A stretch of DNA of 64,000 nt from Sarcocystis neurona (Eukaryota; Apicomplexa; Conoidasida; Eucoccidiorida; Sarcocystidae): contig KL647334.1 of NCBI GenBank assembly GCA_000727475.1, positions 1-64,000 on the forward strand. The letters run 5' to 3'. Positions within the stretch are counted from its first letter, which is position 1; each line of letters begins with the position of its first letter. Position numbers and translations under genes: made by a program. A model generated the notes under the pieces. That model had not been told where the DNA came from. It made no database searches and saw only the letters and a program-made list of their open reading frames with translations. Positions 1,686 through 35,032 of this stretch are shown here, piece after piece.

Positions 1686-4600
1686 GGGTTGACGTCCCTC
1701 AGGAGCAGATTACTAATTCGGGGATAGGCGGGAACAAGTGTAACACTGTCCGCATTTGGAAAGACGTTTTAGCAGTAGATGAAGACGTGCCCAGGTGCAG
1801 CACTTTTTCCTCCGTGAGCCACTATCTCATCAAGGAGACCGGAAAGAACAGAAGCCAGTCTCCCCGAAGCCGTCCGCGTGCTCAGCCTCAGAACTACCTT
1901 AATCTGAGTGGGGTGGCTTTCTTCGTATCATGGCGAACTTCTGCACGCAACTAAATATACGCTGATAAAGACTCCCGTTCAAGCACAACTGCACATCTCG
2001 TGTCTTTATGATGCACGCCCACGTTGACGAAGGAAACGCTACTTCACATTGACGCAGTTCTGAAAGACTGTGGCAGACCCTCTGTCTCCGTGCGTGTCGC
2101 TCCTCGCGATGCCCTGCTCAGGTAATTCTGCTCACCGTGCTCATTCCAATGTGTCAAACACCCCTGGGCGAACGCGGCCTGCTACGCAGACCCTGTCAGA
2201 CGCAAGTCCATTATTGTTTAACCTGGTGTCCCTCTACTGCTAAATCGCGCTCCCCAATGCAGACAGCATTACCCGTGTTCCCACATATTCCCCGGATTAG
2301 GATGCGTGGGGTCGCGGCGCAGTTTTTGGTGCACTTGAAGCAAAAACACGTCCTGGAAGATGTTTAGTACTTTCTCATTATATATCTTCTCCAACTGTTG
2401 TCGACCTCCCTGTGACACGTCGACAGCGCGTCATCATTCGTGTTCCACCTCAGTGCACACTCACGCCCTTCTCACTTCTTCCGTCTCTGCTTTCTTCACT
2501 CCACTACTTCGTACCCTCACGCGTGCTGCCCGTTGCCTCCGTTGCTGTTGTGCCTCGGCGTCCCGACTCTTGTTACCCTTGCTACGGAGCGCCCAGGAGT
2601 ATGACTCAGTGACCCGTGTGTGCCCCTACTGTCAAAAGCAAGACACGCAGTTTCCTATCAAGGGAAGGTAAAGCACCTGCAAATGCAGGCAGACTGGAAG
2701 GAGAAATTCAAGTGACGTCGTATGGAGGCGCAGGAGCGGAGCGTTCTAGCCGGTTTTCAGACGCATCCAGCCGCATATTGTACGTTATTTGTAGTACTAT
2801 ACATGTTGCCTTGCTGCTGCTGTGCTCGCCTCTCAGCAGCCTTCTGCGAGCAGGTCAGTAAAGGAGCTTCTGCGTGTCTTTATCTGGAAGACAATTGGTC
2901 AGTTCAGCTGCTGCAGCAACGAGTTTTTCACCTGATTTGCGCTCACACTCCCCCTCCTCCGCGTAGTGCCATCCAAGCACTTTCCGTCACTTCTTACTGC
3001 GCAGCCTGCTTCCCCTATCCCTGAGTGAACAGCGTGTCTGTCTCTTCGACTTCCTTCTGTTCTACCTGATACCCATCCTCCTGCTATCACCACCTTTTTT
3101 ATTCTTGGTATTTGTTGAGCTTCCTCGCCTACATATCACTCTCCCGTGTGCTGCGGTTGCTCATCTCGGTCTTGATGGTGTCGGTGTGCTGCGCATGCCA
3201 ACTCTGCTGAACAAAGGCGCGTTTGAAACACATTGTGACCCTACGTGAATCTGAGTTAAACAGCGGTGTTTTCTTATGTGTACAAAAGATACTTTCAAAG
3301 TTTGCTCCTGCCTGTGCACGTTGTCTGGTAACGAGCGACGCAGTAAGTCCGCCTGTTCGTGCGATACCTGTAGGCTTTCTCGGCACAGCACTGTCCTTGT
3401 CAGCGTTTCTTTCCTCATTACTTATACCTTCGTCGAAGCTTTGTGCACCGTTTCGTGTTTGGCCTGCTGTTGTTGCGACCTGCATTGCGACTTTCGGGCC
3501 TCAAAGACTACATGCATTGAAGGTTGAAAGGGGGACATGGTTCCGACAGCACGGCGTCGACTTCCTACGAAGTATACCAGTGGATCTTTGTTGAATAGTC
3601 TTTCAATCCTTCTCCGTTAACTGTTATTCCCATGCGTCGTTCTGCCTTTATTAGGTGATTCCTGCTCGTCGTGCTCACCACCTGCTGCAGCTGGTGCCTC
3701 GGAGGCTCCTCGCATCCCGCATTTCGACAAGGCTGCAGCTCATCCGCCTTCGCCCACCACTTAAGAAAAGTGGGAAGTAAGATTACCATAACAAAGTAGA
3801 GTCTTGTCTGTTTCCGCCCGCAGTGTTCGACCGCGTGCGATCCGTGAGCCAGCCAGAGTCAGCAGTATCTCAGGAGGACCTGCGGTCTCACACGAGGCGT
3901 ACTTTCAACTGAAGGGCAATGTCCACTGTGTCACAGACGAAGAGCCGCCTAATTTCTCCTGATTGAACTGGTGTGGCTGCCGCGTCCAGGTAGTGTGTTC
4001 GGGCTTCTACTGGTGCGTGACGCTACTGCGCCGATGCTTCAGTCAGCTGCTTCTCCACTCCAAATTCACTATAGAGTTGACGCCCTGCTGCCCTGACGTG
4101 TTGCTGCCACGCTGTCGCTCCGGTGTAACGCTGCTGGCTTACTGCTCCGGAGCAGCAGAGCGGCACCAGGGCACTGTCGGCACTCCTTCCGTGGAATCTA
4201 CACAGTAAGCTAGGCGCACTGCAGGGCAACAATCCACTCTAAGGGCGCAGCTTGCTTCCTTCCCGAGGTTTTTTCCCTCGGCGCTGTGGTGCTGCGCGCT
4301 CTTCGTACTGTTGCACCAGTGCGCGTTTTCATCTCTGGTTCTGCATTACGATTAGCTCCTGTAGTGGTGTTATTTCTCTGCAGGCCCTGTTTTGCTGTAG
4401 TCACCTGCTGTCGTCTCGTTCTCAATCCTTGCATTCCGTTGACTCTCATGCGGTTTTGAAGTCGCTGGGGTTGTTTGGCCCCCTGGCAGCTACACCGATG
4501 GTTGTTCCCAAAAGGCATATTTGATCCTGTGTCCAGAAAAGGGAGCGCAGTGCCCACGGCGGCGCTACGCGACTGCGGCTGGATATTCAGGTTTGTCTGG

Positions 4601-22600: not shown

Positions 22601-23694
22601 GGTCAACATGTACGCAACCCGTCGTTTGGTGTTGACCGTTCTCGGAGCGATTTTCACGTCGTCTGGACTAGCGGGTGCAGGTGCGGCTGCCGGGTTGCTA
22701 GTGTGCCCTCCTGCACCCAGCACTAGTGTACTGTAACGCTTCATCCGATGTGCTGTAATCTGGTGAAAGTTTCGTTTACCAGCTCTTCTAACCTACCGTA
22801 GAAAATCGTTGTGTACCGCCGCTGCCGCTTCGGGCGGTTAGCTTGGGCGGACGTATCTGTAGCCGTACTGAAGCTCGTAGCAGGCCGCGCTCAGCAGCAG
22901 AATATCCAAAGGCTGTGTATCCGGCTGCTGAAGTAGTCGCTTCACTACTGCTCGTGTGTACTGTTCACGGCAACGTGAGGGTTGCTACCTCCGCATAGGG
23001 GTGTTGTGTGTCTGTTACCGACGGAGAGTCGCTCAGATGCAAGCAATGTGTTTACCAAAATTGCCTTCATCAACTCAGAAGTGATACTACATTTTACGAG
23101 AGCACGTGCAAGAGAAAGAGCGCCTTCGCTTTTGCTATTGATCGCGTTCGTAGTGCTTCAGATTCTCGGGGAAGCGTTACGGCATGGACGCTCTAGTCCA
23201 CTGCGCGTTCCTTCGCAGCAGCTAGCCGACCGCTGAAGCGTACGCCCGGCACACTCTTTCGTTTCTGATCGTGCCCCCAAGAGCAACACGAGCGACCTGC
23301 GTGGCCCCTACACGGAAGGCGTCCCCTTTCAGTGCAGCGCGTTACCTGCACCATCGTGTAGGCAACGTACGCCGGTCGAGGCAGCACCCCCGTGGTTGTG
23401 TATGATCGGACGTCAGACTAGAGTTGTGCTCCAGCAGACACGCACGGGTCGACATTGTCATGCATTGGCCAGGAGCCACCGTTGTAGCAAGCAATGGCTG
23501 CACGAACGCCCAACGCGTTACAGTCGTTTCTACCACAGCCTAACTGATTTCCACATCGTGCGCTGTATGGGTCTGGATGTGCTCAAGTGCGGCTGCGAGA
23601 GAAGCAACAGATGCTGAAGCGGTAACAGTGGTACACGCGGTCTAGTGTCCTCCAGCCTTTGACGCGTGCTCCCGAGCCCCGAGGTACTTTGAGA
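19681..23694. other. No confident gene; weak minus-strand coding hints
   Basis: Between 21.8 and 22.7 kb several overlapping minus-strand frames of 65-98 codons are hydrophilic and Arg/Ser/Ala-rich, as coding exons of this genome are. The plus-strand frames over the same bases are Cys/Leu-rich, as expected of shadows. No motif, start or splice chain could be established, so I list no gene. The remainder (19.7-21.5 and 22.8-23.7 kb) shows nothing recognisable. Confidence 0.35.
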
Positions 23695-23730
23695 TCGGAC
23701 TTTATTGAGTTAGCTATTTACACACATGTT

Positions 23731-23880
23731 ACCTATAGCCTTATCATTAATACATAGGGAGAAGTAGCTGGTGGATGGGAGTTTAGATAACTACATTCTA
23801 CAACTTATGCCGAAATTAGACACTTAAATACTCGAATGGTAAGCCTAAACATGTAAGTACCTATAGCATTATCATTAATA
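23731..23880. repeat. 22-bp direct repeat inside the NUMT
   Basis: ACCTATAGCCTTATCATTAA at 23,731-23,750 recurs with one mismatch at 23,859-23,878, and two further bases also match. The spacing is 128 bp. It may mark the joint between mitochondrial sequence blocks, or a duplication that accompanied insertion. Confidence 0.8.
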
Positions 23881-23942
23881 TATATGTCAAACTATAGAAG
23901 GGTCGAGTATTATCCATGCATGCCAGGCGTAAAAAGCGTCCG

Positions 23943-23990
23943 TGGCGTGCATTAGCCTTTATTACCCTCTTTACTTTAGGAGGTACTGTC
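23943..23990 (+). pseudogene. cox1: cox1 fragment (GGT motif region)
   Basis: The plus-strand reading WRALAFITLFTLGGTV followed by a stop matches the conserved COX1 segment that reads LWA(L/Y)xFIxLFTxGGTTG, just before the helix with the haem-ligand region (established family knowledge). The frame upstream (RRKKRP) does not belong to cox1, and the match ends one residue after GGT, so this is a piece of about 16 codons. Confidence 0.75.
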
Positions 23991-24180
23991 TGACGCGTAG
24001 ATCTTGTATATCTGTGCCACCATATTTACTGCTATAATGCTTTTGCATTGAGTTCTACTTTTATGACATTGAATACGTAATAAGATAATAATAACAAATA
24101 CATAATCAGGGTTGGTATTGCCTGGCTGGTGACTTTACAAAAGTGAGGCTAGTCTTCCGTACGTAATGTATACTGTTTTA

Positions 24181-24249
24181 GTATGCCATATTGGAAGTAA
24201 TTCGTAGTAAAACAGGTACGAAGTAGTTACCAAAAACTGCAAATAATGC
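24181..24249 (-). pseudogene. cox1: cox1 fragment (FGNYFVP region)
   Basis: Read on the minus strand, this piece gives ALFAVFGNYFVPVLL, then a degenerate stretch ending NMAY and a stop. COX1 proteins have GGFGN(Y/W)(F/L)VP, then (D/E/N)MA(Y/F)P at the same spacing. Gly-to-Ala/Val changes and the early stop show decay. It belongs N-terminal to the plus-strand cox1 piece in a normal gene, so the two are out of order and inverted relative to each other. Confidence 0.75.
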
Positions 24250-24419
24250 GGGAGATAATTCTATCCATCCTAAGCCGGTAAGTGGCTTTTTCGCAGACAC
24301 GAGGAAAACAGAATATTTCTATAATTCCCCCTTGTTGTTGAATAGTATTCAATTAGGGACGGTACGGTTAGTACCTACTTGACCCTTCAGTCAAATTTCA
24401 ACAGTGGAACTGTAGTTTA

Positions 24420-24512
24420 TCGGGACTTAAGTAAGTATTTGAAAATCTTAAATATGATTGGAGTAAGTATACCGACGGGATTACTAGAACCATTTAACTG
24501 AAACTGGGTTAT
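24420..24512 (-). pseudogene. cob: cytochrome b fragment
   Basis: The minus-strand reading contains QLNGSSNPVG followed by KIFKYLL. It matches the cytochrome b block (F)LHxxGSxNPLG...LKIxFYPYLL that lies between the transmembrane helices around the second haem ligand. About 31 codons are open before a stop. Substitutions at normally invariant positions (P-V-G for P-L-G) show that it is a relic. Confidence 0.75.
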
Positions 24513-24530
24513 TCATAAGTATCTTCTGGG

Positions 24531-25590
24531 GAGCCTTGCTGTCGCCCCATGGACCACACGCAGTCATAAAACCAGACACGTCGTTCCCCGCTGGTGGGAC
24601 CTCACAAACAGCTGCCGCATCTAAAGAGACACCGTCATTCGTCCTGATGCGCGTGCTCACACTTTAACTTCACCTGAACACACAGAAGTCTATTCGAATT
24701 TCTTCTTGACAATGATCAGAGGACAACGAAGCCGCTGCTTAGTGGCGTGAGCACGAGCGCGACAGCACCACCACCACTGCAGTAGCCACCGCAGGCCGTG
24801 TGCTCGTACGGCCCAGGTACCTGAACAGCTCGCCGTGGTCGGCGCAAATGAATTCGCGCAAAGCAGCAATCACACATCGCCTGCATACACGGAGGTGCTT
24901 TTTTGCATTCATGTAATGTCAGGGAACGGGGAACCACTGCACATCGGACACCCCGATCCGCTTAAAGACCACAGGTCCGCTGCTTCTGCTCGGCAGGGAT
25001 CGGAATCGCCGTTTCCACAGCGTTCCGGTGTAGAGTGCGAGAGTTCACTGTCAGATACGACTTTGAAAGGTGTAAGCCTGAGTCTAACATCAACTAACTG
25101 TTGCGGACATCCTGACGTTGAATACGCGGCGCAGTCAGTCGAGTTATCGAAATAGAACTTCCGAGAATTCTGTGCCTGCTGGAGCTTGCAGGTGGATCGA
25201 CTACTGCCTGGTGTGTGCGCTGGGAGGGTTATCCTGCAGGCGTGACGGACGTGTAAAAATCCTTCAAGCCACTGAGGGTCGCTAGCTGTTCAAGGGGTAT
25301 TGAATGCTACATTTGTATGTGTCAGGAACAGAGGACGCCGACTGCATTCGTCGATCTTGTTTGTAAGTTCACGTTGACGTTAATATCAGGTGACTACTTT
25401 CGGCCACGTTCAAGCGATCGTCTCCAATGCTGACCATGCTGAAGACTAACCCGCATATTTAGCTGCGGTCCCTCCTCTGCTTCTACTACTCGTATTTCGC
25501 TGTGGAGGTTGTTTTTGGGAGACTCATCTTCGGCTTTACAATAAACGCTTAGTACTCAGAGCACTACAACCGTCATGGTTGCTGCGGTGA
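24531..25590. other. Spacer, no recognised gene
   Basis: A frame of up to 106 codons (24,835-25,155, plus) has a GTG rather than an ATG at its start and no recognised motif. Nothing else is supported here. Confidence 0.4.
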
Positions 25591-25593
25591 CTG

Positions 25594-25674
25594 CAATAAC
25601 AACAACAACAACTAATTCAGTGCTACTATTATTACAACTATTAACGACTCTACTACTACTACTACTAATAATAA
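25594..25674. repeat. AAC and TAC triplet microsatellites
   Basis: A short AAC tract (about 25,594-25,613) is followed by a TAC tract (about 25,650-25,668) and AAT triplets. These triplet families differ from the CAG family that dominates the right half of the window. Confidence 0.85.
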
Positions 25675-26061
25675 TTATGTTTACAATAAGACCTTTTAGT
25701 AGAACACTGCCACCGTTCCTACCAGCCGAACCAGGACAACTGCAAGCTACAAGTTTGATGATGTAGAGTGTTAGAGAGCACCTTGTTGCCTATTCGTCTT
25801 TTCCGTGCGAACTTTGTTAGGTATGTCGGAGACGAACTCCCGGTGCTACTGGAAACTTCTCCGCGTACTTCTGGTGATACGCTTTGCACGGGTAGCGCAT
25901 ACGTAATACGGCGTAGTCTTGGTGGAGATAGTGGCAACCTCAGCAGCAACGATGGCACCACGTAGTACATGCAGACTTCATCGTCCTCCGAGCAACCCAC
26001 ACGGTACAGCGAGAACAATAAACATGCACTCCGATGAAGTTGCTTTATCTTCCATTCACGG

Positions 26062-32857: not shown

Positions 32858-35032
32858 CTAGTCCTGACTTTGCTTCTCTGAGATGATGAGGGGCACCTCA
32901 GGTAACCCTTGGCATGTTGCTGCTAATGAGTGACTACTGGTCGCTGACGTGCTGACGCCACAGCCCAACTGTTGCAGCAGCCGCCGCTGACTGGTGGGGC
33001 AGACATCTTCCTCTTCGTGCAGCCCTTCTCCTGGCGCTGCATACTTTCTGCTGTTGCTGTCATCTGCTGACGTGTCGCTTACAAGAATACCGTCCCCGCT
33101 TACCTGCTGCACGTTCTGCTGGGCGTCCTGTCGACAGCAGAGCTGCTGTTGCGCAACGAAATTCAGGAGCTTGCACATATTGTCGCCGAGGCCAAGAGCA
33201 AGGGTGCTGCTGCACCGGCTGTACTTTGCAATGGCTGCCATCGTGCGACATATGGCTTCAGCTGTGCATACACCACCTGCTGCTGCGATAGCAGCAGGCG
33301 GAGTTCGGACGCTAGAGAACACACCCAGGTACTCTCTTTTTTGACCATTTGGTTGCTGTCTTTGCTGTCCAAAACGGCATTCTCCTTCATGTACCTTGTG
33401 ATCTTGCAAGTGCAGCTTAAACTCTGGAGCCGCTTCGTGCGTGTGCTGCTCACAGTGTGAATCCAGCAAGTGCTGCCTCTCCACATGCTGTTGCGTCATC
33501 TGGTGTTCCTGCAACGTCTTGCTGGCCTGCATCACCTGCTGACGCTTTTTCGCCTCAGTGAAGTGGTTACGCTCGCTTCCAGCGTCTATCCCCTCTTGCT
33601 CTTGCATCTTTGACTGTTGCGTCTCCTGGTGTCGTAATCGTTGCTGCAGCACCGGCGTCTGCCGCGGCTGCTTTGAATGGTGCGATGGCCCTTGTAACTG
33701 GTTAGTAGGGTGCTGCGTGCCCTTTTTCTCATGGCATCGCCGCTCTTGCACCTGCTGGCGCATGGATTCATGCTGCTGCATGCACTGCGCCTGCCGCTGC
33801 TGCTGCAGCGCCTGCTGCTGCTGGTGTTCCGCCGAGCTACGCTCATGTGGAAACATCAGATGTGCTGCAGGGAGGTGCTGGAGCCACTCTACACTATTAA
33901 ACATCTCTTTACATTCTCTCCAAGTGCCGTCTAAGCAGATCAGAGTTAGAGGGAGCTGTAGAGGGAAGCAAGCACCAAAGGGGGCAGAACTTACACGCCC
34001 AGCACATTCAGCTGCAGACTTAGGCGTATTAGGCCGTTTAGCAGCAACGGCAGGTAGGACGTCAGCACTATCAGCACGACCACAACAAAAAGAACTTGGT
34101 AAAGCACCAACAGCAGGTGACGCAGCAGCGCAAGCAAGTGAGACAAATGAAGACGCAGCTGCGGCAGCGGAAACATGTGCAACGGGAGCAACACGGCCAG
34201 CAACAGGCTCTGCACAAGCAGTAGCGTGACCACCACCGCGGCCAGCACCAGAAGCAGCATATTTCTCAGGAGCATGGGTACTACTGCGAGAACTGGTACG
34301 CTCAAAGCCTCCCGCGAGAGCTGAGGCAGCCGCCGCCGCCAAGGGGCGAGCAGCAGTATCCTCATTTGCAGCAGTGGCAGCAGCAAACACGGGTGTGACA
34401 GCAGCAGCAGGTAGCGTCGCCACAGCAGCGCAGCTGTATTCGTGAGTAACGACAGGAAGAGGTGAGCTCTGAATTGTGGGAAAAAGCAGTAATAGGTTTT
34501 GCGGATGTTGCAGCGGCAGCAGCTGCTCCACAGGTCGGGGTTTCCTGCAGACGAAAACATGCACAGGATGCACCAGTTGCTGCAACAATGTCAGTGAGCG
34601 CATCTTTCTCTTTGCTTCCAGCGGGTGCACATACACCACAACAGCCTCAAGGATTCCACTGAAAGCAGCTGGAAGGGAAACGGGACCACCAACAGCGGCA
34701 ACAGCCCCGCAAATACACACTCGCCGCGGCCGCATGCACGCCCTACACAAAGCCCGCCTACTGTGCTGTTGCCCGCTCTGCAGATGGCTTTTGTGTTCGT
34801 GCCGGTTCCGTTGCTGCTCGTCCTGTATCTGACGCTGGTGCAGCTGTTGTCGGGGCTGCTGATGCTCGTGCTGTTGTGACTCTTGCTGTTGCTGGTGGCT
34901 CTCTAGCGTAGGGGCGTTCCTGCTGCGCTTCCTCGACAGAGCTGTGAGCAGTGGGTTGCTGTTAAAGAAGCTCATGCCGCTATCTGCCGTCTCCTGCGGC
35001 TGGTAACCCACTCTTCCGTCGCTGCAGGCCAT
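32858..35032 (-). CDS. DTW-domain tRNA-uridine aminocarboxypropyltransferase (DTWD2 type)
   Basis: A single 724-codon frame from ATG at 35,032. The family transfers the 3-amino-3-carboxypropyl group of S-adenosylmethionine to uridine in tRNA, making acp3U. Signatures appear in the family's order: a zinc-type cluster CRACMRPRRVCIC (residues 96-108), HPLEAKRKMRS (136-146), the catalytic-site LDGTW (367-371) followed by RECKEMFNSVEWLQHLP, then SVRTPP (574-579) and CTAEA (589-593), equivalent to the usual RxxP...ST.E block. Typical members have about 200-300 residues. This one is inflated by a Gln/His-rich N-terminus, an Ala-rich insert (about 200-345) and a Gln-rich insert (about 400-565) that separates DGTW from the C-terminal block. 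Whether the inserts stay in the protein or hide unrecognised introns is not settled. The neighbours give no functional clue. Confidence 0.9.
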   Translation of the reverse strand: MACSDGRVGYQPQETADSGMSFFNSNPLLTALSRKRSRNAPTLESHQQQQESQQHEHQQPRQQLHQRQIQDEQQRNRHEHKSHLQSGQQHSRRALCRACMRPRRVCICGAVAAVGGPVSLPAAFSGILEAVVVYVHPLEAKRKMRSLTLLQQLVHPVHVFVCRKPRPVEQLLPLQHPQNLLLLFPTIQSSPLPVVTHEYSCAAVATLPAAAVTPVFAAATAANEDTAARPLAAAAASALAGGFERTSSRSSTHAPEKYAASGAGRGGGHATACAEPVAGRVAPVAHVSAAAAASSFVSLACAAASPAVGALPSSFCCGRADSADVLPAVAAKRPNTPKSAAECAGRVSSAPFGACFPLQLPLTLICLDGTWRECKEMFNSVEWLQHLPAAHLMFPHERSSAEHQQQQALQQQRQAQCMQQHESMRQQVQERRCHEKKGTQHPTNQLQGPSHHSKQPRQTPVLQQRLRHQETQQSKMQEQEGIDAGSERNHFTEAKKRQQVMQASKTLQEHQMTQQHVERQHLLDSHCEQHTHEAAPEFKLHLQDHKVHEGECRFGQQRQQPNGQKREYLGVFSSVRTPPAAIAAAGGVCTAEAICRTMAAIAKYSRCSSTLALGLGDNMCKLLNFVAQQQLCCRQDAQQNVQQVSGDGILVSDTSADDSNSRKYAAPGEGLHEEEDVCPTSQRRLLQQLGCGVSTSATSSHSLAATCQGLPEVPLIISEKQSQD

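Follow-up and report, generated by a model that had tools for sequence, protein, structure and literature searches.

A composite NUMT island in the nuclear genome of Sarcocystis neurona, made of at least 19 short blocks

An AT-rich patch that carries scraps of mitochondrial genes within a long nuclear contig of Sarcocystis neurona raises the question of how pieces from several parts of an organelle genome came to lie together at one chromosomal place. The original prediction for this locus offered two routes, the ligation of several fragments or the capture of an already rearranged mitochondrial genome. We analyzed the patch in its 64-kb context, the window, with which contig C47 (359 kb) begins, and compared it with the whole assembly (122.99 Mb, 74 contigs). 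Below, L-numbers denote loci elsewhere in the same assembly and C-numbers its contigs.

As predicted, the patch is rich in AT. Its GC content in 200-base windows that lie fully within it is 0.32 to 0.40, compared with 0.48 to 0.64 in the nearby flank, and a step in GC content is present at both edges. When the edges are refined from alignments to copies, the composite NUMT island spans positions 23683 to 24537 (855 bp). It lies inside nuclear DNA, as part of the 359-kb contig, which agrees with the proposal of a composite NUMT in a nuclear chromosome. All six frames of the island carry stops and are thus decayed as reading frames. Elsewhere in the window, a second AT-rich patch downstream of the island (25500 to 25800, GC ~0.37) gave no match to the library of NUMT pieces described below, and a 724-aa ORF at 32858 to 35032 on the minus strand carries a DTW domain (Pfam PF03942, 67.9 bits).

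Searching the whole assembly with the island gave 42 matches, the island itself among them; none of the remaining 41 covers more than 83 bases of the query, and jointly they cover most of its length. Alignment to these copies tiles the island into at least 19 blocks of 31 to 77 bp, with a mean of ~41 bp if only the ungapped core of block 16 enters the count (Table 1). Blocks with copies elsewhere account for 784 of the 855 bases, including positions 24362 to 24397, where there is a small length difference, and every block has a copy elsewhere in the 123-Mb genome in a different context. The island is therefore a mosaic, and a far finer one than the three pieces originally reported. The direct repeat noted at the outset is real, but it is 27 bp long with 25 of 27 positions identical (23730 to 23756 and 23858 to 23884), not a near-perfect 22 bp. 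Its two copies trace to the same source piece in L042, and so represent overlapping scraps of it.

Table 1. Blocks of the island, with window positions, strand, gene assignment and copies elsewhere in the assembly (percent identity).
Block	Position	Strand	Assignment	Copies and remarks
1	23683-23732	+		L055 and L013, 94%; L027 and L033, 92%; adjoins cox1 piece in L055
2	23730-23762	+		L042 2851-2883, 88%; same source piece as block 5; overlaps of 3 bp and 4 bp with neighboring blocks
3	23759-23805	+	cob, sense, residues 63-77 of 9g9t chain A	L006, 97.9%
4	23806-23838	+	cob C-terminal part, sense, ~residues 291-301	L034, 97%
5	23839-23884	+		L042 2832-2877, 91%; same source piece as block 2
6	23885-23943	+		L036, L037 and L038, 95-96%, matched stretches of 63-80 bp; flanks of copies differ
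7	23943-23986	+	cox1, sense (..FITLFTLGGT)	L039, 93%; L051, 84%, within PF00115 match at C64
8	24001-24042	+	cox1, sense (ILYICATIFTAIML)	L009, 95%; L062, 90%; L052, 86%, within PF00115 match at C28
9	24046-24081	+		L032, 92%
10	24089-24148	+		L031 3402-3461, 92%
11	24145-24178	+		L015, L033, L040 and L029, 97%
12	24212-24252	-	cox1, antisense (PALFAVFGNYFVPVL)	L031, 95%; L041, 95%, within PF00115 match at C3
13	24253-24291	-	cob, antisense (24253-24276), plus second piece P	L058 reaches 24283; L062 reaches 24291
14	24295-24325	+		L031 3666-3696, 94%
15	24329-24364	+		L032, 94%; L058, 95% over 21 bp
16	24362-24438	+		L031 2397-2330 in two stretches; L019; L033; small length difference from copies
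17	24429-24469	+		L035, 93%; L031, 96% over 27 bp
18	24460-24497	-	cob, antisense (LNGSSNPVGI.T), residues 190-201 of 9g9t chain A	L017, L020 and L032, 95%; L040, 100% over 25 bp
19	24498-24537	+		Right island edge; L035, 97.5%; L014, 95%; L022, 92.5%

Of the 19 blocks, 7 could be assigned to a gene. At least three are cox1, one of them antisense and the other two sense, and four are cob, split evenly between the orientations. Several fragments that differ in organelle origin and in orientation are thus present in one island. The two cox1 pieces of opposite orientation that had been predicted correspond to blocks 8 and 12, and there is a third, block 7; the presence of cob was also foreseen, although as one piece where there are four. 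The cox1 blocks were placed through their copies within Pfam COX1 matches of the genome, together with PDB comparisons, in which the window cox1 piece alone gave weak matches (best E 0.25). For cob, the block 3 peptide EVAGGWEFR*LHSTT scored 65 against chain A of 9g9t (maximum of 34 among 100 shuffles) and block 18 scored 48 (maximum of 31 among 100 shuffles). Block 4 was identified by way of L034, in that a 21-aa peptide of this locus matches the cytochrome b of 9g9t and 9i4x alone (PDB, E <= 10; E ~0.8), and the cob part of block 13 was identified via L035, L032, L058 and L071. None of the other 18 of 20 island stretches compared with the available part of cob exceeded its shuffles; among these were the cox1 blocks, block 13, the blocks with no gene assignment and the C-terminal cob block, which the reference did not cover. 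A composite cob query reached 300.9 and 300.8 bits with 9g9t and 9i4x, which we take to be Toxoplasma entries, and 159 bits with the next best PDB entry. These closest solved relatives of the genome's cob pieces are in keeping with the predicted coccidian host.

Scanned on its own with Pfam and Rfam, the island gave no match, probably because the individual pieces are too short. In the assembly as a whole, Pfam searches yielded eight COX1 matches (longest 351 bp) and seven cytochrome b matches (longest 363 bp), all of them fragments; COX3 (PF00510) gave no match by the same kind of search, which may reflect divergence or fragmentation. No mitochondrial genome of the organism was found in the assembly, and the order of blocks in the organelle was therefore deduced from other nuclear copies and from the PDB and Pfam comparisons. 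The cob piece was not lengthened by extension through overlapping nuclear copies.

As a control, we assembled a 4814-bp library from 19 NUMT pieces, for none of which the window had served as query. Six pieces (L051-L054, L056 and L057) came from the Pfam COX1 and cytochrome b search, and the other 13 from searches with L031 and L032, two loci that had themselves first been found with the window. Against the 64-kb window, this library gave eight matches at E <= 0.01, all eight inside the island and four of them supplied by the six Pfam-derived pieces. The island searched alone gave eight matches at E <= 1e-4, whereas none of 100 order-1 Markov reshufflings gave any. At least seven blocks are mitochondrial in origin, and the remaining 12 probably are as well.

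The island has counterparts in the same genome. Cross-matched stretches in similar mosaics span 1434 bp (L031), 1592 bp (L032), 404 bp (L033) and 701 bp (L034), and a mosaic at L035 measures ~250 bp within a 429-bp span that includes a flanking repeat. Short NUMT stretches are also present, of 46 bp in L042 and 63 to 80 bp in L036-L038. Among 24 loci, 470 pairwise segments (both directions) have a median length of 44 bp. These counterparts bear on the question of whether mitochondrial reads were misjoined into the contig during assembly, an artifact that we consider very improbable: comparable islands lie on other contigs, the patch is interior to a 359-kb contig, and the window blocks differ by 2 to 12% from the copies used for this comparison, unlike reads of one organelle genome.

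Several of the NUMT loci have features of their own. On the same contig as the window, L056 (C47:175843-176205) is a NUMT of 363 bp from the N-terminal part of cob that contains one TAG, and past this locus further NUMT matches continue to ~176273. In L008, the place of L035 on C16, a 52-bp direct repeat (1443-1494 and 1767-1818, 98%) brackets a mosaic island in an area rich in tandem repeats, and may reflect either an insertion that landed in a repeat or duplication of the target. Within the mosaic at L031, a 76-bp inverted repeat (2528-2603 and 2932-3007, 98.7% identity) is one mitochondrial piece that was captured twice or copied.

The borders between blocks bear most directly on how the island was built. 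The 18 joins comprise five that are blunt, five with overlaps of 1 to 4 bp (one 4-bp overlap is exact over 3 bases only), two with imperfect 10-bp overlaps, and six with 3, 3, 7, 11, 14 and 33 bases between the blocks, where the 11-base gap shrinks to 3 if L062 is taken to set the end of block 13. The border of blocks 15 and 16 was taken from a gapped alignment, and the tally otherwise used the ungapped core of block 16. An end-joining signature, with blunt ends or short microhomology of 1 to 4 bp, is present at 10 of the 18 internal joins as a raw observed count. Passages in two papers describe this pattern for end-joined organelle fragments (PMC6215612, PMC9630118).

The same borders speak to the possibility that single NUMTs were inserted successively at one fragile place. 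The genome does hold solitary matches of 46 to 91 bp (L042, L036, L037 and L006), and 71 island bases lie outside the blocks, both of which count in its favor. Against this, 12 of the 18 borders abut or overlap, and by eye no pair of blocks resembles one piece split by a later insert, so we regard such a history as quite unlikely. Short mitochondrial rRNA fragments occur in a size range that takes in the block sizes of the island, which would suit an origin not from DNA but from mitochondrial small RNAs that were reverse-transcribed and then captured. The joins have no obvious A-tails, and parts of cox1 or cob, with both orientations represented, account for at least 7 of the 19 blocks; this RNA route therefore seems to us scarcely credible.

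Comparison with the copies indicates on which side the sequence was cut. For 13 of the 19 blocks, at least two copies share, on at least one side, a continuation that is absent from the window (by eye), which places the cut in the window and not in the copies. Block 19 is an example: several loci carry identical bases to its left, and to its right L035, L014 and L022 share sequence past 24537, where the window becomes nuclear. The pattern was not shown for blocks 2, 4, 5, 10 and 14, because each has a single copy, or for block 6, because its copies differ in their flanks.

Most joins that can be tested in this way are private to the locus, as the route by ligated fragments would have it. Of 31 sites in the window at which matches end, 29 are spanned by none of the 43 other loci compared (12 judged from two sides and 17 from one side) and two are spanned, one of which (24524) sits inside block 19. 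This comparison overlooked a shared join in block 13, and further common joins may therefore be missed. In two genome-wide searches over five borders, of which two could be viewed from either side and three from a single side, the non-window matches (two and eight) all end no more than 3 bases from the borders. Thus, for the borders tested, no copy of the joins turned up elsewhere. In a wider genome search, a few matches cross a border by ~10 to 25 bases at lower identity, at C2:4196321 over blocks 5 and 6, and at C2:762010 and C12:83817 over blocks 10 and 11; the first, given its low identity, was treated as chance.

The shared join lies near position 24276, where cob gives way to piece P at CATCC(A/T)AAGCC. 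The window, L058 (C4) and L062 (C23) enter the same piece P at this site, L072 (C1) follows the join for ~8 bases, and L032 (C12) carries piece P in another cob context. Ordinary cob, encoding LFLQVGFGW(I/V)EL, is found at the site in L071, L035 and a second place of L032, and in L071 it continues as SHPDNSIPVNRFVTPLHIVPEW. The fact that unrelated loci have this join in common while others retain normal cob suggests that it pre-dates transfer to the nucleus, and judging from these sequences it most likely existed already in the mitochondrion. Nuclear duplication is an unlikely cause of the sharing, because the loci lie on different contigs and their neighboring blocks differ where fetched. The second proposed route, through rearranged mitochondrial DNA, thus finds backing in one join that the window has in common with other loci.

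Alternative joins were also sought by comparing exact 12-base words that at least four of the entries share. Four events emerged. Two fall at the cob site, and in one of them L035 and L073 seem to be grouped by accident; a third is a microsatellite match, which we ascribed to chance. The fourth lies outside the window, after TAATCTTTTGTTAGACGCTAAC, where L032 and L067 continue in one way and L019 and L059 in another, and it is a candidate for another mitochondrial block border. Two alternative joins with at least two loci per branch are counted in all; a stricter search gave none, and its length filter probably removed short anchors. By analogy with T. gondii, such common alternative joins would fit a mitochondrial genome whose blocks recombine.

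These shared joins raise the possibility that the mitochondrial genome of the species is itself this finely scrambled, and that one recombined 855-bp molecule was inserted whole. An excerpt on T. gondii describes mitochondrial DNA of 21 blocks in many orders (PMC10948144), and part of a review states that the S. neurona mitochondrial genome has not been identified and is unresolved, and that the nuclear genome is ~2x the size of those of other coccidians (PMC8554336). The cob/P join of the window and the alternative join outside it would also be expected of such a genome. However, the 29 match-end sites that no other locus spans and the private borders in the genome-wide searches argue against it, as does the fact that cob and cox1 run continuously for >100 bp in L056, L071 and L051. 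We therefore judge the insertion of one whole molecule to be unlikely.

The island is, we think, very probably a complex NUMT made from ~20 short mitochondrial DNA fragments, most likely linked by non-homologous end joining (NHEJ) at a repaired chromosomal break, and now inert. In this sequence of events, mitochondrial DNA (cox1, cob and other pieces) would enter the nucleus as very short fragments, of which ~20 would be linked end to end in either orientation. The linking would most likely take place by NHEJ during repair of a chromosomal break, presumably in a single insertion event, and the resulting string would persist as decaying DNA with no apparent function. A weak Ku-domain match in the genome (27.2 bits, compared with a cut-off of 25) suggests that NHEJ may be present, and the two imperfect 10-bp overlaps, which exceed the usual length for NHEJ, count against this enzyme route. 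In T. gondii, NHEJ is implicated in the integration of organelle DNA and microhomology-mediated joining is seemingly absent (PMC12181080, citing Namasivayam 2023).

A broader reading, which we offer tentatively, is that the islands combine both proposed routes, as a fossil record of a Toxoplasma-like, block-recombining mitochondrial DNA whose ~40-bp scraps were end-joined ~20 at a time. If so, the block borders of the living mitochondrial genome would be legible in the common joins, and the end-joining signature in the private ones. Comparing islands could thus tell joins of mitochondrial origin apart from those that arose upon entry, and could help to resolve the mitochondrial genome of this group. 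More generally, ~20 fragments of ~40 bp can make up one NUMT in a genome that is large and probably coccidian, and NUMT searches that require matches of 50 to 100 bp would miss or misread such islands. The NUMTs of Toxoplasma gondii have reportedly been treated by Namasivayam (2023). Among the titles listed by a literature search, none points to such mosaics in Sarcocystis, and they may nonetheless have been reported.

Among known systems, the NUMTs of T. gondii are the nearest, in that very many very short mitochondrial fragments are spread across the nuclear genome of a tissue coccidian and NHEJ is implicated there (PMC12181080, in part). An excerpt gives 8118 masked NUMT sites, with a mean length of 92 nt and ~1% of the genome (PMC10948144); that mean is per site, whereas the S. 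neurona island has at least 19 blocks of ~41 bp each. Complex or mosaic NUMTs are described for plants, yeast and humans in passages of two papers (PMC6215612, PMC9630118), and likewise bring together non-adjacent organelle fragments in both orientations with joins that are blunt or share short microhomology. Two plant examples in these passages differ in having two to four fragments in kilobase islands, compared with ~20 fragments of 31 to 77 bp here. With the block mitochondrial genome of T. gondii (PMC10948144, PMC8554336), the S. neurona nuclear copies have in common a cob join that coexists with normal cob order; unlike that genome, only two alternative joins are seen here, known from nuclear copies alone. 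Dense short NUMTs in T. gondii and complex NUMTs are thus already known, and the island described here lies at the fine end of their range.
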